41,190 nt of DNA. Origin: a virus. Position 1 is the stretch's first letter. Every line of letters begins with the position of its first letter. Positions 23,144-41,190 of this stretch are shown here, one piece after another. Made by a program: the position numbers and the translations under genes. The notes under the pieces were generated by a model that had not been told where the DNA came from, made no database searches, and saw only the letters and a list, made by a program, of their open reading frames with translations. The stretch is taken from the IMG/VR virus record IMGVR_UViG_3300040808_002675, positions 1 to 41,190 of that record. One strand, given 5' to 3'.

Positions 23144-24022
23144 ATGCCAAGAAGAATTTCAACGAGTGTGCAAGGTGGTCCTACACTAGGATCATTTACA
23201 GCTCTGGACAACAACTTATCTACCATTGTCGCAGATGATGATATGATCATGGAGCCAAGCGGAACTGGAAACTTTGTAATTCACTCACACACAATCCTTA
23301 GGGATGCAAAAGAGCTCCGATTTAATGACAGCGATAGTAGTAACTATTTGGCATTGAAATCACCAAGTACTGTAGGAAGTAATATTACCTATACATTGCC
23401 AGGAAGCGGAGTAACAAACGGTTACTTCTTACAAACTGATGCAAGTGGTAATTTAAGTTGGGCAGAAGCAAATGTTAGTGTATCTAACACTACTACAAGC
23501 GGAACAACGCATTACATTACACTTACAACTGCAACTAGTGGAATTATTACAAGTGTAAACACTAGTAACACAAAATTAAGCTTTGTACCTAGTACAGGTA
23601 CATTAAGTGCAACAAGATTTAGTGGCGCTTTGACAAGTTCAAGTGTTGATATTAATGGTGGAAATGTTGATGGAACAACTATTGGATCAGCGTCTGCTGC
23701 TCCTGGTACATTTACTACATTACAATGTACATCAATTAACGAAACATCAAGTATTGCATACAAAGAAAATGTAAATACAATTGAAAATGCATTAGATAAA
23801 ATAATGAAGTTGACTGGAGTTACATACGATCGTAAAGATGGTTCTGCTAAAGAAGAAGCAGGACTAATTGCAGAAGAGGTAAACGAAATTTTACCTAATC
23901 TAGTAAGCAAAAAGGACGGTGTTCCAGAAAGCTTAATGTATACTAAACTAACTGCATACTTAATTGAAGCAGTGAAAACTTTAAAAACAGAACTAGATGA
24001 AATCAAAGGAGTAAACAAGTAA
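23144..24022 (+). CDS. Tail fibre with C-terminal S74 intramolecular chaperone (292 aa)
   Basis: Residues 1-200 are repetitive beta-rich fibre ('FVIHSHTILRDAKELRFND', 'YTLPGSGVTNGYFLQTDASG'). Residues about 201-290 match the endosialidase-type chaperone (Peptidase_S74): 'SSIAYKENVNTIENALDKI', 'LTGVTYDRKDG', 'EEAGLIAEEVNEILPNLV' and a terminal coiled-coil-like helix 'LTAYLIEAVKTLKTELDEI'. In known cases this domain trimerises the fibre and then cleaves itself off at a Ser just before the conserved Lys-Glu; Ser 202/203 here are candidates. It is followed with a 1-nt TAATG overlap by the glycine-rich adhesin, an order reminiscent of T-even gp37-gp38. The ribosome-binding site is AAGGGGA overlapping the previous stop. 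Confidence 0.8.
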   Translation: MPRRISTSVQGGPTLGSFTALDNNLSTIVADDDMIMEPSGTGNFVIHSHTILRDAKELRFNDSDSSNYLALKSPSTVGSNITYTLPGSGVTNGYFLQTDASGNLSWAEANVSVSNTTTSGTTHYITLTTATSGIITSVNTSNTKLSFVPSTGTLSATRFSGALTSSSVDINGGNVDGTTIGSASAAPGTFTTLQCTSINETSSIAYKENVNTIENALDKIMKLTGVTYDRKDGSAKEEAGLIAEEVNEILPNLVSKKDGVPESLMYTKLTAYLIEAVKTLKTELDEIKGVNK

Positions 24023-25053
24023 TGGCAACTTTAAAGAATACTACTTTTAACGATACTGGTCATATTAGATTACCATCTGGTACAGAAGCACAAAGACCGG
24101 GTACGCCACAAGCTGGTATGATGAGATATAATAACACAGCAGGTCAATTTGAAGCATATGCATCTTCAGGTGAATGGCAAGCTATAAGCTTGGCACCTAA
24201 TACAGTTGCTCCTGGACAAAGCGAATATAACAGCCCAGGAACATACAGTTGGGTAGCACCTACTAATGTTGTAGAAGTGCAAGTGCTAGCAGTTGGCGGT
24301 GGCGGCGGAGGCCAAAACAGTTGGGCGAACCCAGGCGGTGCAGGCGCAGGACTAGGTTGGAGAAATGGAATTTCAGTAAACCCAGGATCGTCGTATACTG
24401 TTCAAGTTGGCTACGGCGGCGGTAATGGACAGTATGGTAACAACAGTTACTTCCAAAGCACAAGCACAGTTGCAGGATATGGCGGCGGTGCTGCTAATGG
24501 ACAACGTGGCGGACCTAACCAAAACGGACGTGGCGGCGGCTACGTTGGCGAAGGCGGCGGAGCTGGTGGTAATGCAAACGACTGGACAGGCGGTGGCGGA
24601 GCCGGAGGTTATACCGGACGTGGCGGCAACGTTAATGAAAGAGGCACATCACCTAACGGTGGAGGCGCATCTGGAGGCCAAAACTATTCTTCAACATTTG
24701 GTACAGGCGCCGGAGGCGGTGTTGGTCTTTTAGGACAAGGTTCAAGTGGCGACGGACACTATACTCCATGGAACGGCACAAACTCACCAGGCGGCGGCGG
24801 TAACGGCGGCTCAGGCGGTGAAAGAGGATACTATGGCGAAAATCCTTGGAGTGGTTCTGGACAAAGTTCAAATGACCAAAGAGGCGGCGCTTATGGCGGC
24901 GGAGGTGGTGGTCCAGGCACAAGTTGGCCATCATGTTCAGGAGACGGATACAGAGGTGCTGTACGAGTACTTTGGGGTTCACGTCAAAACAGTAGTCCTA
25001 GTTCTCCTCCACTTACAAGAGCATATCCTAATACAAACACAGGTAACTTATAA
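24022..25053 (+). CDS. Glycine-rich tail-fibre adhesin (343 aa)
   Basis: Residues about 12-55 form the RYNT fibre module ('LPSGTEAQRPGTPQAGMMRY'). Residues 70-92 ('GTYSWVAPTNVVEVQVLAVG') are the entry strand typical of phage glycine-rich domains. Residues about 92-300 are dominated by GG/GGG runs separated by Asn/Tyr/Trp/Ser loops, as in polyglycine-II adhesins such as gp38 of Salmonella phage S16, where variable loops between glycine motifs contact the receptor. Frequent GGC/GGA codons make this stretch locally GC-richer than its surroundings. The ATG overlaps the S74-fibre stop by one nt and AAAGGAG lies upstream. Receptor-binding tip protein is a strong inference; the receptor is unknown. 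Confidence 0.7.
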   Translation: MATLKNTTFNDTGHIRLPSGTEAQRPGTPQAGMMRYNNTAGQFEAYASSGEWQAISLAPNTVAPGQSEYNSPGTYSWVAPTNVVEVQVLAVGGGGGGQNSWANPGGAGAGLGWRNGISVNPGSSYTVQVGYGGGNGQYGNNSYFQSTSTVAGYGGGAANGQRGGPNQNGRGGGYVGEGGGAGGNANDWTGGGGAGGYTGRGGNVNERGTSPNGGGASGGQNYSSTFGTGAGGGVGLLGQGSSGDGHYTPWNGTNSPGGGGNGGSGGERGYYGENPWSGSGQSSNDQRGGAYGGGGGGPGTSWPSCSGDGYRGAVRVLWGSRQNSSPSSPPLTRAYPNTNTGNL

Positions 25054-25062
25054 TAGGAGATA

Positions 25063-25608
25063 ATGATGGAGTTATATATCAAATTAGATGCAGATGGTAA
25101 TCCAACAGGACATCCTATGTTAAGATCAAATCTAGAGACTGCTTGGCCTCATATAGATTTTGACAACTTACCTGATGATCTTGCTCCGTTTGTAAGGTTA
25201 GAAGATCCTAAAAGATCACATCCATATGAAGTAATAGAAACCACATATGAATGGGACGGCGATGTTGTAAAAGATGTTTATACTGCAAGAGACATGACAC
25301 CTAGTGAAAGATCAGCTCAAATATCAGCAGTGCAAGCTACATGGGCAGAAGATACAAATTGTCCAAGTGATTGGGTATTTGACGAAGTAAACTGCTGTCA
25401 CGTACCACCTGTTCCATATCCTAATGATGGAAACTTGCATGTATATAGTATGGACGAAGAAAGATGGGTACAGATAGAAGACAAAAAAGTAGACCTAGGT
25501 CTACCACCTTATCCAACAGACGGAAAACTTTACAAGTGGAGTGATCTACACAACACTTGGGTGATAAAAGATATGGGAGATGATACTGCTCCTCCTGAAG
25601 CACGGTAA
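25063..25608 (+). CDS. Tail-fibre accessory/assembly-like protein with W-P-DG repeats (181 aa)
   Basis: The N-terminal half reads like a phage tail-fibre assembly or tail accessory protein ('YIKLDADGNPTGHPML', 'VYTARDMTPSERSAQ'). The C-terminal half has tandem units 'WVFDEVNCCHVPPVPYPNDG', 'LHVYSMDEERWV', 'LPPYPTDGKLYKWSD', 'LHNTWV', that is a repeating W...PyP-DG-Y motif common in marine T4-like structural proteins. A Cys pair is at residues 111-112. The start could be either of two adjacent ATGs (25063 or 25066) after TAGGAG. It is the last gene before a terminator, immediately behind the adhesin, where T-even phages place fibre assembly factors. The assembly role is inferred. Confidence 0.55.
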   Translation: MMELYIKLDADGNPTGHPMLRSNLETAWPHIDFDNLPDDLAPFVRLEDPKRSHPYEVIETTYEWDGDVVKDVYTARDMTPSERSAQISAVQATWAEDTNCPSDWVFDEVNCCHVPPVPYPNDGNLHVYSMDEERWVQIEDKKVDLGLPPYPTDGKLYKWSDLHNTWVIKDMGDDTAPPEAR

Positions 25609-25669: not shown

Positions 25670-26335
25670 ATGAGTAATTATAAAGGTTTATACAACGATC
25701 CAAATGAACGTGCTAGGGTAACTTATCCTTATGTATATTGGGAAGATGCATTTAGTAGAGAAGAACTTGATGCTATATGTGAAATAGGTTCTCGTGATTT
25801 AGTTGAAGGAACAATTGCTGGGAAAAAAGAAAACCATGATGGCGTAGCAGATACTCCAAAAAATGTAGGTCCAGTTTCTAATAAAAGTGTAAGAAGTTCT
25901 AAAGTATCTTTTCACAAAAAGAATGACGAAACTGAATGGATATTTGAGAGATTAAATGGCCTTATTGAAATGTGTAACAATAGATGGTATAATTATGATT
26001 TAAATGGTTACGAAGCATTTCAATATACAGAATACCACTGGGACGAAGAAGGTCACTATGACTGGCATGTTGACTCACAATTTGGTGTTCTTCCTTACGA
26101 TAATTTAAATTTAGAAATGAGAAAATTATCACTTACTCTACTGTTAAATGATCCAGAAGAAGATTTTGAAGGCGGCGAGTTACAAATTGGTAGCCCATTA
26201 AATCCAGAAACTTGTGCAACAAAAAAAGGCACTGCAATTTTATTTCCTTCATTCCAGTTACATAGAGTAGCACCAGTAAGAAAAGGTATAAGAAAATCAT
26301 TAGTTGTTTGGGTGTTAGGACCAAAGTTTAAGTAA
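25670..26335 (+). CDS. 2-oxoglutarate/Fe(II) oxygenase, prolyl-4-hydroxylase/PKHD type (221 aa)
   Basis: A double-stranded beta-helix dioxygenase. The iron triad is visible as H133-x-D135 ('HYDWHVDSQF') and H198 ('FQLHRVAPV'), with R208 ('RKSLVVWV') as the 2-oxoglutarate-binding Arg. 'LSLTLLLNDPEEDFEGGEL' between them is the classic P4Hc/PKHD strand. Such enzymes hydroxylate proteins or small molecules using 2-oxoglutarate, O2 and Fe(II). It is the first gene of a five-gene plus-strand run ending at 29672, starts directly after the terminator T-tract, and abuts the next ATG (TAA at 26333-26335, ATG 26336). The substrate cannot be read from sequence; neighbouring halogenases suggest a shared target. 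Confidence 0.85.
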   Translation: MSNYKGLYNDPNERARVTYPYVYWEDAFSREELDAICEIGSRDLVEGTIAGKKENHDGVADTPKNVGPVSNKSVRSSKVSFHKKNDETEWIFERLNGLIEMCNNRWYNYDLNGYEAFQYTEYHWDEEGHYDWHVDSQFGVLPYDNLNLEMRKLSLTLLLNDPEEDFEGGELQIGSPLNPETCATKKGTAILFPSFQLHRVAPVRKGIRKSLVVWVLGPKFK

Positions 26336-26860
26336 ATGGCTTGTGAGGTATATGATAATTTTTTAGAAAAGGAAGTATTCAGCAACATACAACGTCTTAT
26401 GCTAAGTGCTGATATACCCTGGTTTATGAATGAACATATAGTTAAACCAGACTATAAAGATATTGATGATCTTTATAATTATCAGTTTACACATGTATTT
26501 TATAGAAATCATGCCCATTGTAGTGATTTTTTTGCAGATTGTATAGATCCGTTGTTTTTTAAGATTAATCCTAGTGCTATAATACGTGTAAAAGCAAATC
26601 TTATTCCTAGGACACACGAAACAATAACACATCAAATGCATGTAGACGTTGGATATTTTAAAGGCAAAACGGCAATTTTTTACATCAACACAAATAATGG
26701 CAAAACTATTTTTGAAGACGGCACGGAAATTGACTCTATTGAAAATAGACTAGTTGTATTTGATTCTAATATATTACACACTGGCACAACATGCACTGAC
26801 ACTAGAGCAAGATGTTTGATTAATTTAAATTATTACACTTGGAACGTAGATGAAACCTAA
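26336..26860 (+). CDS. 2-oxoglutarate/Fe(II) oxygenase-like protein (174 aa)
   Basis: A compact cupin-fold oxygenase with a complete candidate triad: H102-x-D104 ('HQMHVDVGYF'), H148 ('NILHTGTT') and R159 ('RARCLINLNYY'). 'TAIFYINTNNGKTIFEDG' is the expected central strand. It is shorter than the PKHD-type neighbour and probably a different subfamily, resembling phage 2OG oxygenases of unknown substrate. The start codon directly follows the previous stop, and its last 11 nt overlap the halogenase start at 26850, implying co-translation. The catalytic residues are seen; the activity and substrate are inferred. Confidence 0.75.
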   Translation: MACEVYDNFLEKEVFSNIQRLMLSADIPWFMNEHIVKPDYKDIDDLYNYQFTHVFYRNHAHCSDFFADCIDPLFFKINPSAIIRVKANLIPRTHETITHQMHVDVGYFKGKTAIFYINTNNGKTIFEDGTEIDSIENRLVVFDSNILHTGTTCTDTRARCLINLNYYTWNVDET

Positions 26861-28301
26861 TAAAATACTTGTTGTCGGGGGCGGCACAGCAGGTCTAATT
26901 GCAGCAATTATTTTAAAAATAAAACTCAATGTTATAGTAGATGTAGTACATTCAAAAAACATTGGTATTATTGGTGTAGGTGAAGGTTCTACAGAACACT
27001 GGAAAGAATTTATGTCTTTTGCAGGCATAGATCAATATGATTTAATTAAACACTGCGATGCAACGTACAAGAGCGGTATTATGTTTTCAAACTGGGGAGC
27101 AAAAGATTTTTTGCATAGTGTCGCAGGACCTTTTGATAACAAGAATGGACAATACAGTTATGTCTATGCAAAACAGATTGCAAAAAATGATACATATTTG
27201 TATCCTAGTAACTTTTTAGATAGCACAATTGATGTTAGATTTTTTAATACTAGAGATGCTTTTCCTGCTAATCAGTTTCATTTTAACACTTATAAATTAA
27301 ACGAATTTTTGATAGATAAAGCAAAATCTATTGGAATCAATGTTTTAGAAGACGATATTAATGAAGTAATTCTTGATCAAGAAGGATCTATAGATTATTT
27401 GATAGGAAAAAAACAAGAATACAACTATGACTTTTATATAGACAGTACAGGATTTAAACGCATCCTTATGTCAAAACTTGGCGCTAAGTGGAAGTCATAT
27501 AAAAAATATTTAAAAATGAAATCTGCTATAGTTTTTCAAACACCTGATGAGCCAAATTATAATCTTTGGACACTAGCAAAGGCAATGGATTACGGATGGA
27601 GATTTAAGATTCCTGTATGGGGCAGACACGGTAATGGATATATTTTTGATAGCGATTACATTACTGCTGATGATGCACAAAAAGAATTGACCAAAGAACT
27701 AGGCGATATAGAAATAAGAAAACAATTTAATTTTGATCCAGGTTGTTTAGAATCAGTATGGATTAAAAATTGTTGTGCAATAGGTGTATCTGCTAATTTT
27801 GTAGAGCCTTTAGAAGCTTCTAGTATCGGTACAAGTATACAACAATCTTTTTTACTAATGCATAAAATTAGTAACTATACACAACAAACTATACAATCAT
27901 ATAATAAGTCTGTCAATAGTATAATGGAAAATATACGAGACTTTGTTGTTCTTCATTATCAAACAAAAAAGAATCATAACAGTTTTTGGCAAGATTTACA
28001 AAAAACAGAATTACCAGAAAGTTTACTTGAAAATTTAGAAATGTGGAAATATAAACTTCCTATTAGGGAAGATTTTTCAGGACAATCAAATTATATTTTA
28101 TTTACAGAAGACAACTATACATTAGTAATGAATGGTTTAGATTTGTTTGATCGAAAAAGTATTGATGGCGAATATCAAACTCTTAATAGGTTTGCACAAG
28201 ACAATGCAAATCTAATTATAGATGACGAGTTATATAACGAACAAAATTTAAAAACTATAACACACAAAAACTTTCTCAAATTGGTTAGAGACTATCTATA
28301 G
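26850..28301 (+). CDS. Flavin-dependent (tryptophan-type) halogenase homologue A (483 aa)
   Basis: The N-terminal Rossmann FAD loop is 'GGGTAG' (residues 10-15), followed by 'GVGEGST', the family's GVGEATxP motif. The halogenase catalytic Lys aligns with K74 ('TYKSGIMFSNW') and the catalytic Glu with E322 ('FVEPLEASSI'; PrnA E346). The WxWxIP signature is altered to W250-R-F-K-I-P. 'GYIFDSDYI' and 'DSTGFKR' are also typical. The family (PrnA/RebH, PF04820) uses FADH2, O2 and halide to make HOCl/HOBr-derived halogenated aromatics. No flavin reductase gene is in the window. It overlaps the upstream oxygenase by 11 nt. Halogenase is supported; substrate, and whether it halogenates at all, is open given the changed motif. 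Confidence 0.8.
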   Translation: MKPNKILVVGGGTAGLIAAIILKIKLNVIVDVVHSKNIGIIGVGEGSTEHWKEFMSFAGIDQYDLIKHCDATYKSGIMFSNWGAKDFLHSVAGPFDNKNGQYSYVYAKQIAKNDTYLYPSNFLDSTIDVRFFNTRDAFPANQFHFNTYKLNEFLIDKAKSIGINVLEDDINEVILDQEGSIDYLIGKKQEYNYDFYIDSTGFKRILMSKLGAKWKSYKKYLKMKSAIVFQTPDEPNYNLWTLAKAMDYGWRFKIPVWGRHGNGYIFDSDYITADDAQKELTKELGDIEIRKQFNFDPGCLESVWIKNCCAIGVSANFVEPLEASSIGTSIQQSFLLMHKISNYTQQTIQSYNKSVNSIMENIRDFVVLHYQTKKNHNSFWQDLQKTELPESLLENLEMWKYKLPIREDFSGQSNYILFTEDNYTLVMNGLDLFDRKSIDGEYQTLNRFAQDNANLIIDDELYNEQNLKTITHKNFLKLVRDYL

Positions 28302-28317
28302 CACTGGTAAGTACAAT

Positions 28318-28953
28318 ATGATTGAACATTTAACATTTCCTAATATAGGGTTTTTGAAAGCAACACTAAGTGATGCAGATATGCAACCTATAAGAAAAGA
28401 AATAGCAGAAATACAAGAAGACTTTGAAAATACATATAAAGCTAATAATTTTTTAGTAGGAAATATTAAAAAAGAATTTAAAATTAGTAAAAGTGTAGAC
28501 CATATAGCTAGTGTCTTACCTAAGTATGTACAAGAATTTGAAAATCGAAATAATTTCTTTAAATCACAGGATGTCCTTGATCAGAATTGTCCTATAATGT
28601 TAAAAAATGTTTGGGTCAATTTTCAAGAAAGATATGAGTTTAATCCAGTACACGATCATAATGGATTGCTTAGTTTTGTAATATGGACAAAGATTCCTTA
28701 TAAAATAGAAGATGAAATTAATCAAGGACCGGGTAAAGATAGTAGACAACCATTAGCTGGGCATTTTTGTTTTTACTTTACAGATGCATTAGGTACAATA
28801 CGACAATATAGTATTCCTGCAGATCAAACAATGGAAAACACAATTCTTTTATTTCCTGCTAAATTAAATCATTCTGTACATCCTTTTTATAGTAGTGAAG
28901 AATATAGAATTAGTGTGTCAGGAAATATTTGTTACCAAACTGGAAACAATTAA
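28318..28953 (+). CDS. Putative 2OG/Fe(II) oxygenase with HDH motif (211 aa)
   Basis: Resembles the TIGR02466/2OG-FeII_Oxy_5-like proteins of marine phages. The central 'VWVNFQERYEFNPVHDHNG' and 'LSFVIWTKIPY' are followed by 'LLFPAKLNHSVHPF' and 'EYRISVSGN'. The metal-site equivalents appear to be H112/D113/H114, H185 and R197, so the usual HxD is replaced by HDH. It is a clear paralogue of the minus-strand gene 31383-32012, with the same motif order and length. The N-terminal half is helical. The 16-nt gap from the halogenase carries only a weak ribosome-binding site. It ends in a 1-nt overlap with the next gene. Enzyme class is likely; activity is not proven by sequence. Confidence 0.65.
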   Translation: MIEHLTFPNIGFLKATLSDADMQPIRKEIAEIQEDFENTYKANNFLVGNIKKEFKISKSVDHIASVLPKYVQEFENRNNFFKSQDVLDQNCPIMLKNVWVNFQERYEFNPVHDHNGLLSFVIWTKIPYKIEDEINQGPGKDSRQPLAGHFCFYFTDALGTIRQYSIPADQTMENTILLFPAKLNHSVHPFYSSEEYRISVSGNICYQTGNN

Positions 28954-29672
28954 TGTTTTTTAAAAAAGATAAAATAAGATTTTTTTGTGAACTAGACGAA
29001 GTAAAGGAAAGATATCCTATTGTGCCTGCACAAAAAATTAAGTTTGACTGGTTTAAAACATCTGCAAAAAACTTTAAACATATGGCAGACACTAAAGGAG
29101 CCTACGAGCAAATATCCGGTGTAGTAAAATGTCCCGGTGTTAGTCCTATAATGAAAAAAGGATACATTGTTCAGTCCTGGTTTGATTTAACAATAAGATT
29201 TCATAACGACGGTTTTGAATATTTTATACCAGAAGGAATATTATCTTATCTGAAAGAAAAAGGATTCAAGAAAACACTAGTAAATGGTTTTAATAACGCA
29301 GAACCTGCTCATGCTACTCCTATTCCAAAATCTCAGTTTCAAGGTTTATTAAAAATAACCACACCTTGGTCTGTTTCAATACCAAAAGGTTGGGAACTGT
29401 TATTACAGCCGATACCTTATCCAGATGATATAAACTTTAGCGCAGTGCATGGTATATTAGAGCATGGCGATTTTTATCATTTAAATGCAATAATAAGATG
29501 CAATCAATACCACAGAGAATTTACAATACCAGCAGGTACTCCTTTATTTCAAATGATACCTATAAAAACTACAAAAACAAATGTAATGTTTGAAAGATAT
29601 ACAAATGAAATTAAAAAGAAAGAAGATAGGCAACAATTTGATGCCCATCATCAGTTTATAATCAAAAAATAA
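28953..29672 (+). CDS. DUF6065-like protein of unknown function (239 aa)
   Basis: The ATG at 28953 overlaps the previous TAA by one nt (TAATG). An in-frame TTG at 28929 would lengthen it by eight residues but has less support. The C-terminal half has the beta-rich pattern I associate with DUF6065: 'TPWSVSIPKGWELLLQPIPY', 'GILEHGDFYHLNAIIRC', 'FTIPAGTPLFQMIPI'. The middle 'KCPGVSPIMKKGYIVQSWFDL' is typical of marine phage homologues. There is no HxD or nucleotide-binding motif. It closes the five-gene run with two oxygenases, a halogenase and the HDH protein, and converges on the carbamoyltransferase gene with no gap. Family assignment is from memory and moderate; function unknown. Confidence 0.55.
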   Translation: MFFKKDKIRFFCELDEVKERYPIVPAQKIKFDWFKTSAKNFKHMADTKGAYEQISGVVKCPGVSPIMKKGYIVQSWFDLTIRFHNDGFEYFIPEGILSYLKEKGFKKTLVNGFNNAEPAHATPIPKSQFQGLLKITTPWSVSIPKGWELLLQPIPYPDDINFSAVHGILEHGDFYHLNAIIRCNQYHREFTIPAGTPLFQMIPIKTTKTNVMFERYTNEIKKKEDRQQFDAHHQFIIKK

Positions 29673-31373
29673 TTAGTTCGGGATGTATACACATCTTTTA
29701 ATTTCAGGCATATAAAGATACTGTAATTTAGATCTTCTTAAAGAATCTATTGCATCATCTACAGTCTCGACAATAGGGTCTCCTGCAAGATTAAATGATG
29801 TGTTAAGTAGCATAGGAACACTTGTTTCATTGTGCCATGTGTTAAGAAGGTTATAAAAATGAAAATTTTGTTCTTTATTAACAGTTTGTATTCTGCAAGT
29901 ATTATCTATATGAAGTACAGCAGGAATATCAATTAGTGTTTCTTTTTTTGCATTTACAGCATACATCATATAAGGTGAACTATCTATTTTATCTAGCTCA
30001 AACCAATCCTTTGCATATTCTTCCATAACTGTTGCAGCAAATGGTCTAAAAGATTCTCTACCCTTTACAGTATTAACAATGTCTTTGCCTTTGTCAATTC
30101 TAGGATCAAAAATAATACTTCTATTACCTAATGCTCTAGGACCAGCTTCTGATTTTCCTTGATATAGCCCAACTATATGTCCTGCTTTTAATAGTTCGAC
30201 TATAGTTTCGTAGTTAGCAAAAAACTCTTTCTCGTCTTCTTGTAATCTACTTAAATAATTATACTCAGGATCATTACCTCCTATATAAATCGATGGAGTA
30301 GATATAGGAGTTTCGCTTTTATTTTTTTCGTTAATATATAAGAGAGCAAGACCTATACAGTTGCCTTCATCTCCACAGAGAGGATCAACATATATGTTTA
30401 CATCTTCTGGCAGTTTTTGTCGATAGTAATAGTTTGCTACAACGTTTAGTGCAGTACCGCCAGTAAGGACTATATTTTTATTACCTGTTTTATCAATCAT
30501 ACGCTTGATGCGATCTAATCCTATTTCTTGAAATGCTTTTTGAACTTTTTTTGCAAAGTCGGTTGCATTTGCATCATCTAAAAGTTCTAAATGATCTCTA
30601 GTAAATCCTAGATGTTTTCTTTCATGGTCGAATGCAAATAAATCCATATCAAACTCGCCATTCTTTAAAGGATCAGGAACTAGCCAATTGTCGTTCCCGA
30701 ATGATTGAGCACTCATCATTTTTCCGCCTTCGTCGTCAAGCCCCATACTACGAGAAGTTCCTTCATACATAAATCCTAAATCAAAGCTGTTAGATATTTC
30801 AATCTCACTTTTTTGACTCACATATCTAGGTCTAGGAACTCGGTGTATAGTAAACTGATTGTGCCAAATTATTTTTGTATCTTCGTCTATTTTTGAATGA
30901 GTATGAAATCTTCTATAAAGTAATTTAAAATTACCTTTTTTATTTGCTTCAAATATTGAAGTAGTTTCTTGGGCTTGTCCTCCATTAGATAAATTATATG
31001 TAGATCCTTTTCCGTCGCAAACAAATACCAATGCGTCATCAAATCCTGAATCATAAAATGCTTTTGTTGCATGATATAAATGATGTGCTTTGTTGTAAGG
31101 AACAAATTCAAATCCTTTGTTAAAAGCAAATCCCATTTTTTGTAATATACTAATTATAGACATGTTTTCAGAAAGCACACTATCATATCCAGATATTAGT
31201 AGTACATCTATGTCTTTACAAATTTTTTGTATTTCTTGTAAGGTATAATATGGATACCCGCTATCTTTTTTAATTCTAGATAATCTTTCTTCTTGATTAT
31301 AATAAATTAATTCGTTGTTCATGTATAAACAAGCACTCGAATTATGATCTTTTTGTATACTTAAAATATTCAT
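29673..31373 (-). CDS. NodU/CmcH-type O-carbamoyltransferase (566 aa)
   Basis: The full two-domain family length is present. The N-terminal TsaD/Kae1-like domain begins 'MNILSIQKDHNSSACLY', has 'NQEERLSRIKKDSGYP', the metal-binding 'HHLYH' at 97-101, 'VFVCDGKGS' at 117-124 and 'LTGGTALNVVAN' near 303-314. The C-terminal YrdC-like domain has 'SEAGPRALGNRSI' (408-420), 'GRESFRPFAATVM' (438-450) and 'LLNTSFNLAGDPIV' (522-535). The family transfers a carbamoyl group from carbamoyl phosphate to a hydroxyl via carbamoyl-AMP, on sugars (Nod factor, tobramycin) or antibiotics. It is the second gene of a two-gene minus operon after the HDH oxygenase; GGAATG precedes the ATG. It appears intact. The acceptor (glycan, hydroxylated peptide or small molecule) is unknown. 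Confidence 0.9.
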   Translation of the reverse strand: MNILSIQKDHNSSACLYMNNELIYYNQEERLSRIKKDSGYPYYTLQEIQKICKDIDVLLISGYDSVLSENMSIISILQKMGFAFNKGFEFVPYNKAHHLYHATKAFYDSGFDDALVFVCDGKGSTYNLSNGGQAQETTSIFEANKKGNFKLLYRRFHTHSKIDEDTKIIWHNQFTIHRVPRPRYVSQKSEIEISNSFDLGFMYEGTSRSMGLDDEGGKMMSAQSFGNDNWLVPDPLKNGEFDMDLFAFDHERKHLGFTRDHLELLDDANATDFAKKVQKAFQEIGLDRIKRMIDKTGNKNIVLTGGTALNVVANYYYRQKLPEDVNIYVDPLCGDEGNCIGLALLYINEKNKSETPISTPSIYIGGNDPEYNYLSRLQEDEKEFFANYETIVELLKAGHIVGLYQGKSEAGPRALGNRSIIFDPRIDKGKDIVNTVKGRESFRPFAATVMEEYAKDWFELDKIDSSPYMMYAVNAKKETLIDIPAVLHIDNTCRIQTVNKEQNFHFYNLLNTWHNETSVPMLLNTSFNLAGDPIVETVDDAIDSLRRSKLQYLYMPEIKRCVYIPN

Positions 31374-31382
31374 TTTACATTC

Positions 31383-32012
31383 CTAAACGTCAAAAACAAA
31401 ATTACCTGAAACACTGATTCTAAAATCGTCAGTGCTAAAAAATGGATATACTGCATGTCTCAACTTTGCAGGAAATACTAAACATATATTTTCCATTGTG
31501 TCATCTACTTTAATAATATGAGACTGTATTCTGCCTAGCGCATCTGTATACTGAAATTCAAACGCTCCGGCTAAATTTTCTTTAGATTTTTTACCTGGAG
31601 AACTAACATCTTCACCTGATCGTGTGTATGGTATTTTAGTCCAAATTACAAATGAAAAAATTCCATCATGGTCGTGACTAGGATTAAATTCATGTTTTAA
31701 CTGAAAATTCACCCAAGCACTCTTTAGTACAATTGGCACATTTTTTGATAGTACACTTATATGTTCTATATAATCATATGCTTGATCATAATGTGTCAAC
31801 AATGGAAAAACCAATTGTTCTAAATGATTTTTAGAATCAACTAACTTAAATTCTTTTTCTATGTTTCCGATTAGTGCTGAATTCATTTCTTGTGAGTTAG
31901 TAAAATCTTTTTGTATTTTTTGTATTTCTTCTCTCACAGGTGCGAGATCATCATTACTAAATTTACAATGTAAAAATCCATAGTTGTTAAAGTTTTGTGT
32001 AAAAACTTCCAT
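31383..32012 (-). CDS. Putative 2OG/Fe(II) oxygenase with HDH motif, paralogue of 28318-28953 (209 aa)
   Basis: Shares with the plus-strand paralogue 'WVNFQLKHEFNPSHDHDG' (H113/D114/H115/D116), 'FSFVIWTKIPYT', 'FQYTDALGRI', 'LVFPAKLRHAVYPFF' (H186) and 'DFRISVSGNF' (R198). It is the first gene of a minus operon with the carbamoyltransferase, 9 nt between genes. A distant GGAG lies 5' of the ATG. The two copies sit in oppositely oriented operons on either side of the DUF6065 and carbamoyltransferase genes, so they arose by duplication or separate acquisition. Catalytic competence depends on whether HDH can replace HxD. Confidence 0.65.
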   Translation of the reverse strand: MEVFTQNFNNYGFLHCKFSNDDLAPVREEIQKIQKDFTNSQEMNSALIGNIEKEFKLVDSKNHLEQLVFPLLTHYDQAYDYIEHISVLSKNVPIVLKSAWVNFQLKHEFNPSHDHDGIFSFVIWTKIPYTRSGEDVSSPGKKSKENLAGAFEFQYTDALGRIQSHIIKVDDTMENICLVFPAKLRHAVYPFFSTDDFRISVSGNFVFDV

Positions 32013-32084
32013 TTTGATTTATAGACTCCGGTGTTAGTGATATATAACTTATGTATGCAAAAATACAATTGAGGACATCAAGAA
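32013..32084. promoter_or_regulatory. Divergent intergenic region of two oxygenase operons
   Basis: These 72 nt separate the minus-strand HDH oxygenase from a plus-strand oxygenase and must hold promoters for both. An AT-rich GATATATAACTT stretch (around 32038-32050) is a plausible -10 region for the plus strand, and GAGGA at 32071-32075 is that gene's ribosome-binding site. No clear TAAATA late box is present on either strand; TATAAATC on the minus strand lies between the GGAG and the ATG, too late to be the promoter. Confidence 0.35.
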
Positions 32085-32636
32085 TTGGTATTTAATAAAG
32101 TTAATTTAAAAAACGAAGAACTAGATTTTATAGAAAATTTTGTCCTACAAGAATGGATTGAATTATATAAACAACCTTGTCAAACAGATTTTGATCCTCC
32201 TGAACAAGTAAAAGATCGTGCAGGAAATAGTTATTTTTTCTCACATGCACTAATGAGAAAAAATAACAGTCCTAACACAGACGGAGAAGTAAACAGTAAT
32301 CATTATCCTATGTTTGAGTCTATATTTTTGCGCTGGCTAGAAGAAAACAATTTTAACAAACCTAAACATATCTATCGGGCATGTATTAATGTAACAACAT
32401 ATCTTGATAAAGAATTTTCAGTACCGCATTATGATCATTCTTGGCCACACTACAATTGGGTATGGTATCTAAATGATACAGATGCAGGCACACTGTTGTT
32501 TGACGAAGAATACAATGTAACTAAAGAATTTCCCTCTAAGAAAAATTATGCATGTGCATTTGAAAACACATTACATGCACAGCAATTTCCTAAACCTGAT
32601 CAATTAAGATACGTAGTTGTGTTTACTTTTATTTAA
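32085..32636 (+). CDS. 2-oxoglutarate/Fe(II) oxygenase (183 aa), TTG start
   Basis: The complete facial triad H115-x-D117 ('VPHYDHSWPHYNWVWYL') and H164 ('NTLHAQQF'), plus R175 ('DQLRYVVVFTF'), is in the spacing expected for 2OG dioxygenases. 'DAGTLLFDEE' is the intermediate strand. The start is a TTG with GAGGA (32071-32075) 9 nt upstream; no in-frame ATG sits nearby at the N-terminus. It is a single-gene transcript flanked by minus-strand operons, and its last 8 nt overlap the end of the convergent halogenase gene. It differs from the HDH pair and from the PKHD enzyme, so it represents another subfamily. The substrate is unknown. Confidence 0.8.
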   Translation: MVFNKVNLKNEELDFIENFVLQEWIELYKQPCQTDFDPPEQVKDRAGNSYFFSHALMRKNNSPNTDGEVNSNHYPMFESIFLRWLEENNFNKPKHIYRACINVTTYLDKEFSVPHYDHSWPHYNWVWYLNDTDAGTLLFDEEYNVTKEFPSKKNYACAFENTLHAQQFPKPDQLRYVVVFTFI

Positions 32637-34086
32637 GATTTTCTAAAAACTGTCTATGATCGGGCGCATAATTGATCATATGATCAATTTCTTGACGGTA
32701 TTGCATAGGACTTGGAGTTAATCTTTCATAGCCTTTTTGATTTATTTTTTCTTCGATTAAATGTAACCCTTTACAAATCCAAAGCCAGCTCATTAACGGA
32801 AAAATTGCAGGACAATTTTGCTTTTGCAAATAATGGTATTGTAGTTTTCCTTTTTTAACATACGGTAAAAGCTCTTTTATTATTTCAGGTGTTTCTGTTT
32901 TTTCTTTAAATTCTTTCCAAAAAGGACTGTCGTTCCGTTTTCCTAAATAGTGTAAGTGTACAAAATTCATTTTTTCGTCAACTTCATTACCGATTATTTT
33001 GTTAAACAAATCTATTTCACTTTGATCTAAATTATCAATAGTGTGCAAAAATTGCTTCAAATTAGTCATTAAAGATAGCTGCAACCATATTGAAGTAGAT
33101 TCTAATGGTTCGATAAAGTTTCCTGCTAACCCTACAGCAATGCAGTTTTTAATCCATACATTTTCGTATCTACCTGCATCTATGTCAATTACTTTCCTTA
33201 CTTCTACAGAATGTCCTAGATGTTCTTCAACTTCTTTTTGTGCTTCGTGTTCATCGATATAATCACTGTCGAAAACATAGCCTGCACCTATTCTATGTTG
33301 TAAAGGTATTTGCCACATCCATCCATATTTTAATGCTCTTGCAACTGTATATGGAGGTATTTTTTCTTGTGGATCTAACCAAAAAGGAATTGCTTTTTTC
33401 ATTGGCAGATATTTTGTATAAGAAATCCATTTTTCTTTAAATGCCTTACCGATAATTTGTCTGTGCATACCGGAACAATCAAAAACAAAATCACAATTTA
33501 CTTTTTGCTCCTCTAAAATTAAAGAAGTAATTATGCCGTTTTTGTCTTGTTCTACATCAATATATTTGTCTTCGATTATGTTTACATTTCTAGAACGACA
33601 AATTTTTTCTAAATACTCGCCAAATCTAGCAGTGTCAAAATGCAAAGCATGTACAGTATTATCTATGTCTACTTTGCATTCATTTGCTAACTTATTTTGA
33701 TACATAAACTCGTCAAAGGGCAAGTTGTCACTTATAAGCCTTTTGACATAGAAATCAAAACAAGAATGATCAAAAATTCCTGGTATGGCAAAATCAGCAA
33801 CCTCTTCTACAAACGGATGCAAATATTTTGTACCGTCGCCGTTCCAATTTTCAAAACTAATTGCATGTTTTACACTGCCACCTGTTTCTTTCAAAAAATG
33901 ACCTATATCAATATTACAACTTTGTAAGAAGTTTAATATCTGCGGAGTAGTTGCTTCTCCTACTCCTATTATAGGAATATCTTTTGCACGTATCATTGTG
34001 ATGTTATCTTCAGGGAAAAACTTACGAAGACTTAATGCTGTTATCCAGCCTGCTGTTCCTGCTCCTAAAATTACAAAATTTTTCAT
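32629..34086 (-). CDS. Flavin-dependent (tryptophan-type) halogenase homologue B (485 aa)
   Basis: The most canonical of the three halogenases. FAD loop 'GAGTAG' (8-13), 'GVGEATTP' (41-48), catalytic Lys K73 ('SVKHAISFENW'), an intact WxWxIP motif at 256-261 ('GWMWQIP'), 'GAGYVFDSDYID', and catalytic Glu E329 followed by Ser330 in 'FIEPLESTSI', as in PrnA E346-S347. Length is close to family members (about 500-540). It lies 1 nt downstream of the HxH oxygenase gene in a minus operon. It should be able to bind FAD and make the lysine-relay halogenating species; the aromatic substrate is unknown, and the flavin reductase would have to come from the host. Confidence 0.88.
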   Translation of the reverse strand: MKNFVILGAGTAGWITALSLRKFFPEDNITMIRAKDIPIIGVGEATTPQILNFLQSCNIDIGHFLKETGGSVKHAISFENWNGDGTKYLHPFVEEVADFAIPGIFDHSCFDFYVKRLISDNLPFDEFMYQNKLANECKVDIDNTVHALHFDTARFGEYLEKICRSRNVNIIEDKYIDVEQDKNGIITSLILEEQKVNCDFVFDCSGMHRQIIGKAFKEKWISYTKYLPMKKAIPFWLDPQEKIPPYTVARALKYGWMWQIPLQHRIGAGYVFDSDYIDEHEAQKEVEEHLGHSVEVRKVIDIDAGRYENVWIKNCIAVGLAGNFIEPLESTSIWLQLSLMTNLKQFLHTIDNLDQSEIDLFNKIIGNEVDEKMNFVHLHYLGKRNDSPFWKEFKEKTETPEIIKELLPYVKKGKLQYHYLQKQNCPAIFPLMSWLWICKGLHLIEEKINQKGYERLTPSPMQYRQEIDHMINYAPDHRQFLENLK

Positions 34087-34087
34087 A

Positions 34088-34681
34088 TTATTCCTTGTGT
34101 ATGTCTGCGTTAAATGCTATTGATATTCTAATTTCGTCGTCTACATTTGGTTCAACATAATGTTCTAACCAACTGGGGAAAATCATTAGTTTTCCTTCTT
34201 CAGGTAAGACGCTCCAATTACATGCTAGAAAGTTTGTCCACTTATCCATAGTATTTTCGGGTATAGTATATTGCTGAATAATAGACGGGTGTTTAAACAC
34301 TAACTTTCCGCTTTCTTCATTGCACTTTACATAATATACGCCTGAAAATGTAGCACCAGGGTGTACATGTGGTCTGTTAAAACTACTTTTACGATCGTTT
34401 ACATTAATCCATAAATTAATCATATTGATTTTTGCTTCTTCTAAAAATCCTAATTGAACTTTTACAGATTCAAGTTTTTCAGTAATAGTATCTACTAGCT
34501 TTTGAATTTCGTCATTTGGTTTTACTAGATTGTCGCTTTGCCAACCTATAAAATTACTTTTGACCACTCCGTCGCTATCGTCGTCTTTTAATTCATAAGC
34601 GTATCGTATTAATTCTTCATTGTCAATATTCTTTAAATAATCATTTAAAAGAAATGCTGGGAATAGAGTGTTCAATTCCAT
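34088..34681 (-). CDS. Putative 2OG/Fe(II) oxygenase, TIGR02466-like, HxH motif (197 aa)
   Basis: The core 'WINVNDRKSSFNRPHVHPGA' and 'FSGVYYVKCNEESGKLVF' are followed by 'GKLMIFPSWLEHYVEP' and 'EIRISIAFN', the layout of TIGR02466/2OG-FeII_Oxy_5 proteins. Candidate ligands are H105 and H107 (HxH, not HxD), H174 and R185. It is the first gene of a minus operon that continues 1 nt later with halogenase B, so the two are almost certainly co-expressed. AAAGGAAA precedes the ATG. Family resemblance is good; whether it is a true oxygenase is not settled because the second ligand is not acidic. Confidence 0.72.
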   Translation of the reverse strand: MELNTLFPAFLLNDYLKNIDNEELIRYAYELKDDDSDGVVKSNFIGWQSDNLVKPNDEIQKLVDTITEKLESVKVQLGFLEEAKINMINLWINVNDRKSSFNRPHVHPGATFSGVYYVKCNEESGKLVFKHPSIIQQYTIPENTMDKWTNFLACNWSVLPEEGKLMIFPSWLEHYVEPNVDDEIRISIAFNADIHKE

Positions 34682-34752
34682 TTATATTTTCCTTTGAACT
34701 TTAAGAGCATAACTAGTATATATATCATAAAATTTACTAAGAGGAAAAATTT
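34682..34752. promoter_or_regulatory. Divergent promoter region between oxygenase and halogenase C
   Basis: On the plus strand TTGAAC (34694-34699), 17 nt, TATATA (34717-34722) makes a plausible sigma70-type promoter 31 nt before ATG 34753, with AGAGG as the ribosome-binding site. The same TA-rich core could serve as -10 for the minus strand. No late TAAATA box is seen. This suggests, weakly, early or host-type expression for the inner island operons. Confidence 0.35.
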
Positions 34753-36300
34753 ATGAACATTGTCATTGCCGGCGGCGGCACAGCAGGCTGGCTAGCTGCA
34801 TTATTTATAGCAAAAAATCATCCAAATCATAATATAACAATAGTTGCTTCATCTAAAATTGGAGTTATAGGAGCAGGTGAAGGTGTCACTGGCGAACTTA
34901 TGGATGTTATAATAGGACATTACGGTGATTTTGGTATTGATCCTAAAGAGTTTTTAAAAAATACAGGAGCTATGCCTAAATATGGTATTATGCATAAAAA
35001 TTGGACTCCTGTAAAAGATAAACAGTATTTCGGTCCAATAGATGGAACTAAAACAAGCGGAAGACTTCCGGATGATTTAATTGTTTATCTATCAAATTTT
35101 GCAAAAGATAAAGCATATCTCGGATCATTCTATGGCAATTTATATGAACAAAATGTTTCGCCTGTTAATAAAGTTACTAACACTTATGAAATATCAACTT
35201 TTGCCTTCCACTTTGATGCGAGACTAGCTGCACAAGAGTTAGAAAAAGCAGCTCTAAAATTTCCTAATATAACACTTGTTGATAGTATTATAAAAGGATC
35301 GACAATGAATAATGGATTGATAGATTCTTTGATTTTAGAAGATGGGCAAAAACTAGAAGGTGATTTTTTTGTAGACGCTACAGGATTTGCAAGACTCCTT
35401 ATAAAGAATTTTGATGTAGGCTGGATTAGTTATAAAAAACATTTACCTGTAAATACTGCGTTACCTTTCTTTATACAATACGAAGAAGGTGAATCTCCTA
35501 ATCCATACAGTATGGCATGGGCACAATCTGCAGGATGGTATTGGGAAGCGGCTGTACAACATCGTAAAGGGTGCGGATATGTATTTTCAGATGATCATAT
35601 TTCTGTTGACGATGCACATGCTGAGATAGAAAAAACACTAGGTCGTAAAGTAGATCCTATTAAAGTTTTAAAATTTGACAGCGGAAGATTAGAAAATAGT
35701 TGGGTTAAAAATTGCTTTGCAATAGGATTAGCATCTGCTTTTAGTGAACCTTTAGAAGCAACATCTATTCATGCAACTATACGACAGTTAGCAGACCTGT
35801 CTCATGAATTTATACAGCCGACGATTGAAGATACAATTAATCCTGCTAGTATTAAATTATGCAACCATAGAATGAATAGAATGTATGACGATTTTAAAGA
35901 TTTCTTATCATCGCATTATCTAGGAGGTCGTACAGACACTGAGTTTTGGAAATATGTTACAAACGAATCTGCAACAGACTTTGCTAAAAATTTACAAGAA
36001 ATGTGTAAGTCAAGAATTCCTACAAAATTTGATTTTCCTCATTATCCAGGGTCGGCTAATTGGACAATTTGGTCTTATGTATTGTTGGGTACTAATCAAC
36101 TTACAGAAAAAGTAACATCTAAATATTTGAACGAAGAAATTATTAGAGATAGTGAATATTACTTAAATCATTTAGCTACTTTTGCAGAAAAAACAAAACT
36201 TACGCACTATAGTTTCGATGAACATATTGATATTGTAAAAAATAATCCAATAGATTTTATACCATATTTAGGCGATGAACACTATCTAGGACATTTATAA
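34753..36300 (+). CDS. Flavin-dependent (tryptophan-type) halogenase homologue C (515 aa)
   Basis: FAD loop 'GGGTAG' near residues 7-12, 'GAGEGVT' in place of GVGEATxP, candidate catalytic Lys K76 ('MPKYGIMHKNW') and Glu E335 ('FSEPLEATSI'). The signature tryptophan motif reads W262-Y-W-E-A-A, so the IP pair is lost. 'GCGYVFSDDHIS' and 'DATGFARLLI' are conserved. It is a single-gene transcript, divergent from the oxygenase/halogenase B operon, and the last island gene before the late promoter at 36330. Full length, no frameshift. The flavin-binding halogenase fold is supported; the altered WxWxIP suggests a changed substrate or activity such as plain oxygenation or peroxide production. Confidence 0.8.
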   Translation: MNIVIAGGGTAGWLAALFIAKNHPNHNITIVASSKIGVIGAGEGVTGELMDVIIGHYGDFGIDPKEFLKNTGAMPKYGIMHKNWTPVKDKQYFGPIDGTKTSGRLPDDLIVYLSNFAKDKAYLGSFYGNLYEQNVSPVNKVTNTYEISTFAFHFDARLAAQELEKAALKFPNITLVDSIIKGSTMNNGLIDSLILEDGQKLEGDFFVDATGFARLLIKNFDVGWISYKKHLPVNTALPFFIQYEEGESPNPYSMAWAQSAGWYWEAAVQHRKGCGYVFSDDHISVDDAHAEIEKTLGRKVDPIKVLKFDSGRLENSWVKNCFAIGLASAFSEPLEATSIHATIRQLADLSHEFIQPTIEDTINPASIKLCNHRMNRMYDDFKDFLSSHYLGGRTDTEFWKYVTNESATDFAKNLQEMCKSRIPTKFDFPHYPGSANWTIWSYVLLGTNQLTEKVTSKYLNEEIIRDSEYYLNHLATFAEKTKLTHYSFDEHIDIVKNNPIDFIPYLGDEHYLGHL

Positions 36301-36357: not shown

Positions 36358-37572
36358 ATGAATTCTGCACCAATTGTTGATCGTATAAGAATTATTCCTA
36401 GAGCTAAAGACTTTTTAGATAGAAGTACAGGTTCAAGCGGCGAGGTATTCTTTAGTAAAGAAACTAATACACTAAGAGTGTATAGTGGACGAACTGCAAA
36501 TCGCGGCGGGTTTGAAGTAGTAACCGATGCAAGTCTTAGAAGAAATATCGGCCAGCAAGAAATTGCATCTGTAAAATATGATGTTACTATAAATAATTCA
36601 GGCACCGGCAATAAGTATATTCTAAACGGTGTAGAACGCCCAGCACTGTCATTTGTGATAGGTTACACTTATGTTTTTGATCAAACAGATCAAACAAACA
36701 TTTATTATCCTAATCCTGAAGGCGGTGCAAATAACCAGCATGTGCTTGGATTTAGTGCAGACAATATAGATGGTGTTGAAGGCGGCGGCACAATTTATGA
36801 AGACGGTGTAAAATATATACTAGATGGCAAAGAGGTTGACAGAAGCACTTATGTAAAAAACTTTCAGCGTTCAGACACACGTATTGTTCAAATAACTATT
36901 ACTTCTTCTACTCCTGAAACATTATATTACTGGTGTAATCAACATACTGGTATGGGCAATGAAATTAGTGTAGGAGAACCAGGAGCAGGTTCAGCAGGCG
37001 CCGGAACAGTTACAGCAAGCATTGATCCGCCTGCAAACCCAACTAACGGAAGTGTTTGGTTTGATGCAGAAATAGGTAAATTATATGTATACTTAGATGA
37101 CGGCGACAGTCAACAGTGGGTACAGCCTGTTGCTACAGAAAGTGCAGGAGTTGATTTAACAGCATTTAGTGTAACACAAAATCCAGCATCGGGAACAGGA
37201 TCACTTACATATGATGACGCAACTGGAGTTTTTGAATATACTCCTCCAGAAATTAGCGGCGGTGGCGGCGGTGGATTTGATCAAACTTTAAACACTACAG
37301 ATGATGTAGTATTTGCAAGTATAGAAGCAGCAAGTTTTACAAATACAGGTGTTGGCATTTCGACTATAACAAGTGCAAGTACACTAACACTTGATGTAGG
37401 AGATGCACTTATAGTTTCGGGCGGTCCATTTAGATTACCTAGTCTAACTGATGCAGAAAGGGATGCATTAATTCCTGTCAACGGCGACATGATATATAAT
37501 ACAGATAATACAAGAATAGAATCTTATGTCAATGGAGCATGGGTAATAGTTAGCACTAGTCCAATAGTTTAA
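36358..37572 (+). CDS. Virion structural protein with a cupredoxin-like domain (404 aa)
   Basis: Residues about 1-70 form a fibre-type head with 'GSSGEVFFSKETNTLRVYSG'. Residues about 80-205 look like a plastocyanin-like domain: 'YTYVFDQTDQTN', H128 ('NNQHVLGFS'), then strand 'RIVQITIT' and 'YYWCNQHTGMG' with C193, H196 and M199, the Cys-His-Met set of a type-1 copper site. 'PANPTNGSVWFDAEIGKLYVY' and a C-terminal RYNT-like module ('LPSLTDAERDALIPVNGDM') mark it as a phage fibre protein. A late promoter lies 20 nt upstream. A second cupredoxin protein lies two genes on. Copper binding is inferred from ligands only. Confidence 0.7.
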   Translation: MNSAPIVDRIRIIPRAKDFLDRSTGSSGEVFFSKETNTLRVYSGRTANRGGFEVVTDASLRRNIGQQEIASVKYDVTINNSGTGNKYILNGVERPALSFVIGYTYVFDQTDQTNIYYPNPEGGANNQHVLGFSADNIDGVEGGGTIYEDGVKYILDGKEVDRSTYVKNFQRSDTRIVQITITSSTPETLYYWCNQHTGMGNEISVGEPGAGSAGAGTVTASIDPPANPTNGSVWFDAEIGKLYVYLDDGDSQQWVQPVATESAGVDLTAFSVTQNPASGTGSLTYDDATGVFEYTPPEISGGGGGGFDQTLNTTDDVVFASIEAASFTNTGVGISTITSASTLTLDVGDALIVSGGPFRLPSLTDAERDALIPVNGDMIYNTDNTRIESYVNGAWVIVSTSPIV

Positions 37573-40050: not shown

Positions 40051-40293
40051 ATTCTTCAATATATTTTTTCTTAGTTTGATCATATCATTTCTTTTATCTA
40101 CAAGAAGTGTTGGTGTAACATAACCATTATAATAAGAATCATAACCTATATCAATTTCTGCAACTAGTCGTTTTAGATCTTCGATCTTTTTTCTTACTTT
40201 AGTTTTTTTTGGTTCTTCCAGTTTAGCAGCTTTGTCATAGAAAAATTTAATTTCTTCTTTAAATTTGTCACTTGTAGATATTTTAGGCAGCAT
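40036..40293 (-). CDS. Small charged helical protein (85 aa), unknown
   Basis: A Lys/Glu-rich, largely helical protein ('FKEEIKFFYDKAAKLEEPKK', 'KIEDLKRLVAEIDIGYDSYY', 'KRNDMIKLRKNILKNL') with a short non-helical 'NGYVTPTLLVD' segment in the middle. It has no recognised domain. Its start overlaps the end of the upstream cupin gene by 11 nt, so the two are probably coupled. Its end overlaps the convergent structural gene by 15 nt. It could be a small scaffold, chaperone or coiled-coil adaptor. Not identified. Confidence 0.6.
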   Translation of the reverse strand: MLPKISTSDKFKEEIKFFYDKAAKLEEPKKTKVRKKIEDLKRLVAEIDIGYDSYYNGYVTPTLLVDKRNDMIKLRKNILKNLNNA

Positions 40294-41104: not shown

Positions 41105-41112
41105 AATAATAG

Positions 41113-41190
41113 TTAGCCGTCTAGATCGATTCTCCATGTGCCAACTGGATATTCTCCGTCAACACTTAGCAGCCATTCGTCGTTTTTAAA
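41113..41190 (-). CDS. C-terminal fragment of an unidentified protein
   Basis: A minus-strand open frame enters from the right edge and ends at a TAA (41113-41115), leaving 25 residues: 'FKNDEWLLSVDGEYP', then 'VGTWRIDLDG'. It lies 8 nt upstream of the Nudix start and presumably belongs to the same operon. It is too short for a family call; the Trp/Asp-rich strand pattern suggests a beta-rich protein. Confidence 0.5.
   Translation of the reverse strand, partial: FKNDEWLLSVDGEYPVGTWRIDLDG

Follow-up and report, generated by a model that had tools for sequence, protein, structure and literature searches.

A recurrent island of halogenase, oxygenase and carbamoyltransferase genes beside phage tail-fibre genes, possibly tailoring a virion protein

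In cyanophages, genes for prnA halogenases, carbamoyltransferases and oxygenases were tabulated by Sullivan et al. (2010; PMC3037559), who proposed roles in 2-oxoglutarate (2OG) and NtcA signalling and in DNA repair, and an antibiotic role was repeated, as speculative, by Clokie et al. (2010; PMC2984593). The 24 oxygenase genes of S-SCSM1 (PMC9602691) and the ten of S-CREM1 (PMC9964418) were read as host reprogramming. For more than 15 years, phage halogenases and cyanophage oxygenase arrays have counted as auxiliary metabolic genes without a target. Here we analyzed the IMG/VR virus record IMGVR_UViG_3300040808_002675 (the window; 41,190 bases with linear ends, probably a fragment), in which eleven genes at positions 25670-36300 encode halogenases, oxygenases, a carbamoyltransferase and one small protein. 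These genes very probably represent a recurrent, selected island within a virion-gene module. The single genes are already known, while a description of the island as a unit was not found in the literature searched. A full-text search returned "phage", "tryptophan halogenase" and "carbamoyltransferase" together only in Sullivan et al. and no account of such an enzyme island linked to tail genes; most subscription papers lay outside this search, leaving priority unproven.

An initial annotation of the window, made from the sequence alone, had described a cluster of three halogenases, six 2OG-oxygenase-like proteins, a carbamoyltransferase and a DUF6065 protein between structural genes. Its layout was reproduced: all eleven open reading frames (ORFs) are free of internal stops and form five strand blocks (plus 25670-29672, minus 29673-32012, plus 32085-32636, minus 32629-34681 and plus 34753-36300), with gaps of at most 72 bp between them. 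OXY2 and HalA share 11 bp, the end of OXY6 is 1 bp away from HalB, OXY6 and HalC are oriented divergently, and both island flanks consist of baseplate/tail-fibre genes. Profile scans of the eleven genes found no core gene for a non-ribosomal peptide synthetase or polyketide synthase (precursors of ribosomally synthesized and post-translationally modified peptides were not specifically searched for), which makes a pre-existing molecule the likelier substrate of the island enzymes. The reading as a coherent tailoring cluster located among virion genes was supported. The island genes are as follows.

25670..26335, plus strand: OXY1, 2OG-Fe(II) oxygenase of the PKHD/prolyl-4-hydroxylase type (PF13640, 56 bits, cut-off 27; phrog_61; HVD and H198..R kept)
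26336..26860, plus strand: OXY2, 2OG-oxygenase-like protein (phrog_274, weak DUF6445; HVD102..H148..R; kept in L007, L008, L009, L010 and L033)
26850..28301, plus strand: HalA, flavin-dependent halogenase (PF04820, 289 bits; K74, GWRFKIP, EPLEAS; orthologues in L008, L203, L066 and L104)
28318..28953, plus strand: OXY3, 2OG oxygenase (PF13759, phrog_81; HDH112..H185..R)
28929..29672, plus strand: small 247-aa protein with a predicted dUTPase-like fold (phrog_7084; no Pfam match)
29673..31373, minus strand: CARB, O-carbamoyltransferase of the NodU/TobZ/NovN type (PF16861, 196 bits; PF02543, 54 bits; HHLYH, GKSEAGPRALGNRSI)
31383..32012, minus strand: OXY4, 2OG oxygenase (PF13759, phrog_81; HDH113..H186..R; L203 copy 55% identical)
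32085..32636, plus strand: OXY5, 2OG-oxygenase-like protein (phrog_274; HYD115..H164..R; L203 copy 57% identical)
32629..34086, minus strand: HalB, flavin-dependent halogenase (PF04820, 356 bits; K73, GWMWQIP, EPLEST; nearest cultured relative in HTVC008M, 43%)
34088..34681, minus strand: OXY6, 2OG oxygenase (PF13759, TIGR02466; HVH105..H174..R)
34753..36300, plus strand: HalC, flavin-dependent halogenase without the IP of WxWxIP (PF04820, 299 bits; GWYWEAA, K76, EPLEAT)

Like the prnA/2OG-oxygenase genes of the cyanomyoviruses syn9, Syn10 (VirX1), S-RIM44, P-TIM40, S-CREM1 and S-SCSM1, the island combines halogenases, PF13759/PF13640 oxygenases and the dUTPase-fold protein in a cluster after tail-fibre genes. 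However, the cyanomyovirus islands read run in a single direction and lack a carbamoyltransferase, whereas the window has its genes on alternating strands and, in addition, CARB and a third halogenase. The Pelagibacter phage HTVC008M, besides its HalB relative, has an oxygenase gene overlapping that halogenase and an oxygenase array flanked by baseplate genes and gp13, but its set is split, with one halogenase beside the terminase, and the stretch shown contains no carbamoyltransferase or dUTPase-fold gene. P-RSM4 carries a carbamoyltransferase 38% identical to CARB and several oxygenases after tail-fibre genes; its stretch has no halogenase.

Related loci (L numbers) were sampled with halogenase, dUTPase-fold and flank queries, so that the fractions given here are not natural frequencies, and some of the IMG/VR contigs are duplicates. 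Oxygenase counts in relatives are approximate because the in-house hidden Markov models were built iteratively and the oxygenase subclasses overlap. A HalB query retrieved 49 IMG/VR loci. The best match is L203, in which the segment from the dUTPase-fold gene through HalC agrees in gene set, order and strand, with protein identities of 55-60%, while HalA (62% identical over a cut fragment) is separated from the dUTPase-fold gene by three ORFs. The adjacent structural gene of L203 is 46% identical and the subtilase 24%, so conservation of the island genes is no lower than that of these structural neighbours. Shorter versions of the cluster were found in the six contigs L007, L008, L009, L010, L011 and L033 (L007/L033 and L008/L009 being near-copies), which share the flanking genes of the window wherever the contig extends that far. 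Of the six, only L008 and L009 have HalA, and the dUTPase-fold gene was not found in the stretches read of any of them. The site beside the homologue of the downstream flanking gene (36358) holds varying cargo, which may be a full set, oxygenases plus the dUTPase-fold gene, or nothing but carbamoyltransferases. A halogenase was present in 22 of the 74 loci beside this homologue; many of the others are distant relatives, duplicates or truncated contigs. The homologue searches, in which the genes could have turned out to be scattered independently, showed the opposite, a recurrent co-occurrence.

The initial annotation had also linked such genes to T4-like marine phages. A restriction to these phages was not supported, as the terminase of the nearest large relative (G001; 200,843 bp) is closest, among 2,658 matching records, to that of PA5oct-like jumbo Pseudomonas phages (54% identity). 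The cargo thus crosses phage lineages. The G001 island spans 52.8-61.2 kb, amid genes for portal, capsid, baseplate, neck, sheath and terminase, and contains both of the halogenases of that phage. Eight of its 11 halogenase/oxygenase genes fall within 8.4 kb, which none of 200,000 random placements reached, so the clustering exceeds chance. The window has no terminase, and we infer its own lineage from the flanks in common with G001, including a subtilase 69% identical to that of G001. Among cultured phages, islands follow tail-fibre or fibre-assembly genes in syn9, S-RIM44, P-TIM40, Sf-FR1 and Sf-CH3, and a collagen-like gene in S-CREM1; those of S-RIM44, Sf-FR1, Sf-CH3 and Sf-CH11 end just before the neck gene gp13, with tail-fibre genes before. 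The P-SSM2 halogenase adjoins genes for assembly of the L-shaped fibre.

The three halogenases, the sole ones in the window record, all match PF04820 above the curated cut-off (E 6e-86 to 4e-106) and retain GxGxxG, the active-site Lys and the Glu of EPLE. The WxWxIP motif is present in HalB, has one change in HalA and has lost the IP in HalC. This loss is common to the HalC orthologues (AN in L008, AS in L011), and the replacement by AA, AN or AS across the orthologous group suggests an altered chemistry. The HPFE and YHG...YS motifs, listed for the substrate of the free-tryptophan 5/6/7-halogenases PrnA, RebH and PyrH (PMC8269204), were found in none of 104 phage halogenases. In a FastTree analysis of 103 phage halogenases, HalA, HalB and HalC fell into three separate, well-supported groups, each including orthologues from other phages, and the tandem pair of cyanophages into a different large clade. 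HalA and HalC relatives co-occur in L008, L066 and L104. Several different halogenases per island are therefore a repeated state, suggesting different sites or substrates. Mixed-orientation islands are found in L104 and L066, with up to four halogenases, many oxygenases, and the HalA/HalC relatives ordered differently from the window. A different arrangement is seen in the 188-kb contig L050, with two pairs of tandem halogenases and few oxygenases nearby. The free-standing bacterial enzymes BrvH and those of Xcc-b100, and the peptide halogenase MibH, whose substrate is a peptide, resemble the phage proteins as PF04820 members without the free-tryptophan signature motifs. Those enzymes are, however, cellular and encoded outside virion gene blocks. 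In the literature, VirX1 groups with them.

All six 2OG-oxygenase-like proteins were recovered, four by Pfam above cut-off and OXY2 and OXY5 by phrog_274 and the HxD...H...R motif only, for which "2OG-like" is the right wording. The metal motif is HxD in OXY1, OXY2 and OXY5 and HxH in OXY3, OXY4 and OXY6, with the distal His and Arg in all six; HxH is also present in both solved PF13759 relatives. OXY1 resembles PKHD and prolyl-4-hydroxylases (PiuC, Sbal_3634) in sequence and metal motif, but the similarity is low (at most 36 bits); it matched the PKHD hydroxylases 3dkq and PiuC and the prolyl-4-hydroxylase (P4H) 6iuq. Matches to Pfam's own PF13759 model in ten related contigs lie mostly near the halogenases of the same contigs, and cyanophage islands additionally carry JmjC_2/Cupin_8 proteins. 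Characterized relatives in the PKHD/P4H, JmjC_2 and Cupin_8 families often hydroxylate protein residues. The phrog_274 family, which includes gp51 and gp53 of syn9 (L054), is labelled "DNA endonuclease V" in PHROGs/RefSeq. Since the window pair carries HxD...H...R and syn9 gp51 matches PF13640 weakly, this label looks wrong for these proteins.

CARB has both the N- and the C-terminal domain (PF16861, PF02543) above cut-off, the HxxxH motif (HHLYH) and a GPRALG-type motif, as in NodU, CmcH and TobZ, in agreement with its first assignment as a carbamoyltransferase. Its relatives in the PDB are NovN, GdmN and TobZ.

The DUF6065 name given to the 247-aa protein found no support, as the PF19541 profile did not match it and reached only one of seven relatives (E 0.08). 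An AlphaFold2 model from 21 aligned members gave a predicted local distance difference test score of 83.9. All 50 PDB matches listed by Foldseek were dUTPases or dCTP deaminases, with a best E value of 6.6e-4, but only one match was below E 0.001 and template-modelling scores were low (0.25-0.33 by query length). A dUTPase-like fold is thus tentatively predicted, and one of the cyanophage members is already annotated as a triphosphate nucleotidohydrolase. The catalytic Asp of dUTPase motif 3 (GxxD) is present in 13 of the 21 aligned members; the window member reads GILE, and the Glu at this position makes dUTPase activity doubtful. The window sequence alone found no match in viral contigs, whereas an alignment-based search returned 293 viral stretches. 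In 57 of the 80 loci read, a halogenase lies within 3 kb of the dUTPase-fold gene, with oxygenases in most (L144, drawn from the carbamoyltransferase search, is an 81st locus in this count). All 14 cultured cyanophage records with the protein have a halogenase gene adjacent, 12 of them by annotation and Syn10 by gene positions, with S-CREM1 as the fourteenth. From this adjacency we would guess that the small protein is a partner of the halogenase. A bacterial home was rejected: 84,980 species genomes yielded just two loci, a Prochlorococcus single-cell contig and a Nonlabens contig resembling cyanophage P-TIM40 in gene order and proteins. The latter (L157; N. xiamenensis NZ_RMVE01000006.1) carries fibre-like genes, two halogenases, the dUTPase-fold protein, oxygenases and a helicase, and its P-TIM40-like stretch is probably phage-sequence contamination.

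The genes before the island encode baseplate-wedge and fibre proteins, a protein with an S74 chaperone domain and one rich in glycine; those after it encode a baseplate/fibre-like protein, a subtilase and another tail protein. The closest neighbours are the following.

24022..25053, plus strand: glycine-rich adhesin-like protein, candidate substrate (PF21722, E 1.9e-4, just below cut-off; 62-67% identity in L008, L010 and L033)
25063..25608, plus strand: conserved 181-aa protein flanking the island, rich in W and P, which may be a substrate or a chaperone (orthologues adjoin OXY1 in L007, L008, L009, L010 and L033; family searches gave no match)
36358..37572, plus strand: baseplate/tail-fibre-like structural protein, the downstream flank (phrog_708, phrog_9729; adjoins the island in L203, L033 and L185-L187)
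37582-39147: subtilase next to the island (counterparts at L033 2239-6576 and L203 11496-13523)

The position beside fibre or adhesin genes in several phage groups suggests that phages with such clusters chemically modify their own host-binding parts, and we put the probability that the island tailors a tail-fibre/adhesin protein of the virion at roughly 40%. This reading also draws on the oxygenase types (PKHD/P4H, JmjC_2 and Cupin_8), whose relatives include protein hydroxylases, on the missing biosynthetic core gene, on the higher identity of the island in L203 than of the adjacent structural gene, and on the lack of free-tryptophan motifs in all the phage halogenases. It further draws on published enzymes. 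The active site of VirX1 from cyanophage Syn10 is large and open (PMC8407142), and this enzyme clusters with the indole halogenases BrvH, KrmI and MibH (PMC8269204); RebH is reported to brominate peptidyl Trp in vitro (PMC13184988). QhpG, a flavoprotein oxidizing peptidyl Trp, resembles FAD-dependent halogenases (PMC7876137), and its profile matches the island halogenase-type proteins weakly. The cassette would act on host-contact proteins of the phage during their synthesis and assembly: oxygenases would hydroxylate side chains on a fibre or adhesin, halogenases supplied with reduced flavin by the host would add Cl, Br or I to protein-bound Trp or Tyr, the carbamoyltransferase would cap a hydroxyl, the dUTPase-fold protein would assist a halogenase, and halogenases of deeply separate clades would serve different sites. 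Composition, motif integrity, recurrence, gene order and position of the island are shown by the sequences; its late expression, the protein substrate and all chemistry are what we infer from the genes, and the order proposed in the initial annotation, hydroxylation first and carbamoylation second, is likewise a conjecture.

Several findings weigh against a virion-protein substrate. Carbamoyltransferases of the NodU/TobZ family act on small molecules and sugars, the P-SSM2 halogenase and carbamoyltransferase lie about 60 kb apart, and the HTVC008M halogenase adjoins the terminase even though its oxygenase array sits in the interval from the baseplate genes to gp13. Since glycine-rich genes abound in these regions, their nearness alone is weak evidence. 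An enrichment of Trp/Tyr in adhesins beside halogenases was not seen against only nine comparison proteins, and this idea was dropped, as was collagen prolyl hydroxylation, since no collagen-like G-X-Y tract was found in the window. The wider proposal, that several marine phage lineages share a dedicated system for post-translational halogenation, hydroxylation and carbamoylation of their own receptor-binding proteins, in which the phage-specific dUTPase-fold protein would be the halogenase partner, is possible but doubtful. If true, host contact would be varied chemically, beyond sequence alone, by a viral protein-halogenation system, which would amount to a new level of recognition between phage and host and would provide halogenases that work on proteins. 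One recurrent island beside fibre/adhesin genes across lineages makes the modifications directly testable on virions of cultured cyanophages, and the metabolite or glycan view would gain if they were not found there.

Decoration of a glycan, be it a host surface polysaccharide (superinfection exclusion) or a virion sugar, through carbamoylation and hydroxylation of sugars or lipids appears unlikely. The CARB relatives NodU, TobZ and NovN do carbamoylate sugar or antibiotic hydroxyls, and in S-CAM1 the carbamoyltransferase adjoins heptose, phosphoheptose and nucleotide-sugar genes at a comparable site, but flavin-dependent halogenases require an electron-rich ring, which glycans lack, and neither a glycosyltransferase nor a nucleotide-sugar gene was found among the island genes of the window. 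We also consider it rather unlikely that the island makes or alters a small molecule, such as a halogenated indole or tryptophan, an antibiotic or a signal, set free on lysis or shielding the host during infection. Such a product has been the subject of speculation for cyanophage prnA (PMC2984593, PMC9964418), and VirX1 halogenates many small aromatics in vitro. However, the island contains no core biosynthetic, transport or resistance gene, its location is inside the virion-gene block, and the free-tryptophan motifs are missing throughout.

It is improbable that the site is merely a hot spot collecting unrelated accessory genes without a joint pathway. The variable cargo would fit, as L165/L184 hold only a carbamoyltransferase pair, and L212 and L215 oxygenases and the dUTPase-fold gene without a halogenase, but the recurring enzyme types form a narrow set only, L203 retains the whole segment from the dUTPase-fold gene through HalC, and HalA and HalC relatives recur jointly in other orders in L066 and L104. 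Still less support can be given to oxygenases acting mainly on the 2OG pool and nitrogen signalling through NtcA, or in DNA repair, with the halogenases as unrelated passengers. This follows the proposal of Sullivan et al. (2010), but leaves unexplained the constant co-location with halogenases and tail genes and the variety of oxygenases per island, and the genes for oxygenases, halogenases and the dUTPase-fold protein move together. Very improbable is a hypermodification of DNA by the oxygenase and carbamoyltransferase acting on modified pyrimidines, a pairing of enzymes known from TET phages. DNA methyltransferase genes do lie near the syn9 and P-TIM40 islands, but the island of the window has none, and Tet_JBP (PF12851) matched none of its six oxygenases, on which ground a TET-type modification was rejected; PF12851 was also unmatched in 11 related contigs, where the control was equally silent.

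Recent foreign import, considered in view of the low G+C content of the island, was rejected since G+C at third codon positions is equal in the island (0.196) and the structural genes (0.189); the difference in overall G+C therefore reflects amino-acid make-up. The subtilase ORF beside the island extends to 1,445 aa in the 200-kb relative, and L203 has a different protein (24% identical) there. At the end of the window, a cupin-like protein (40283-40660) and a NUDIX hydrolase (40670-41137) are encoded on the minus strand, opposite to the tail genes.

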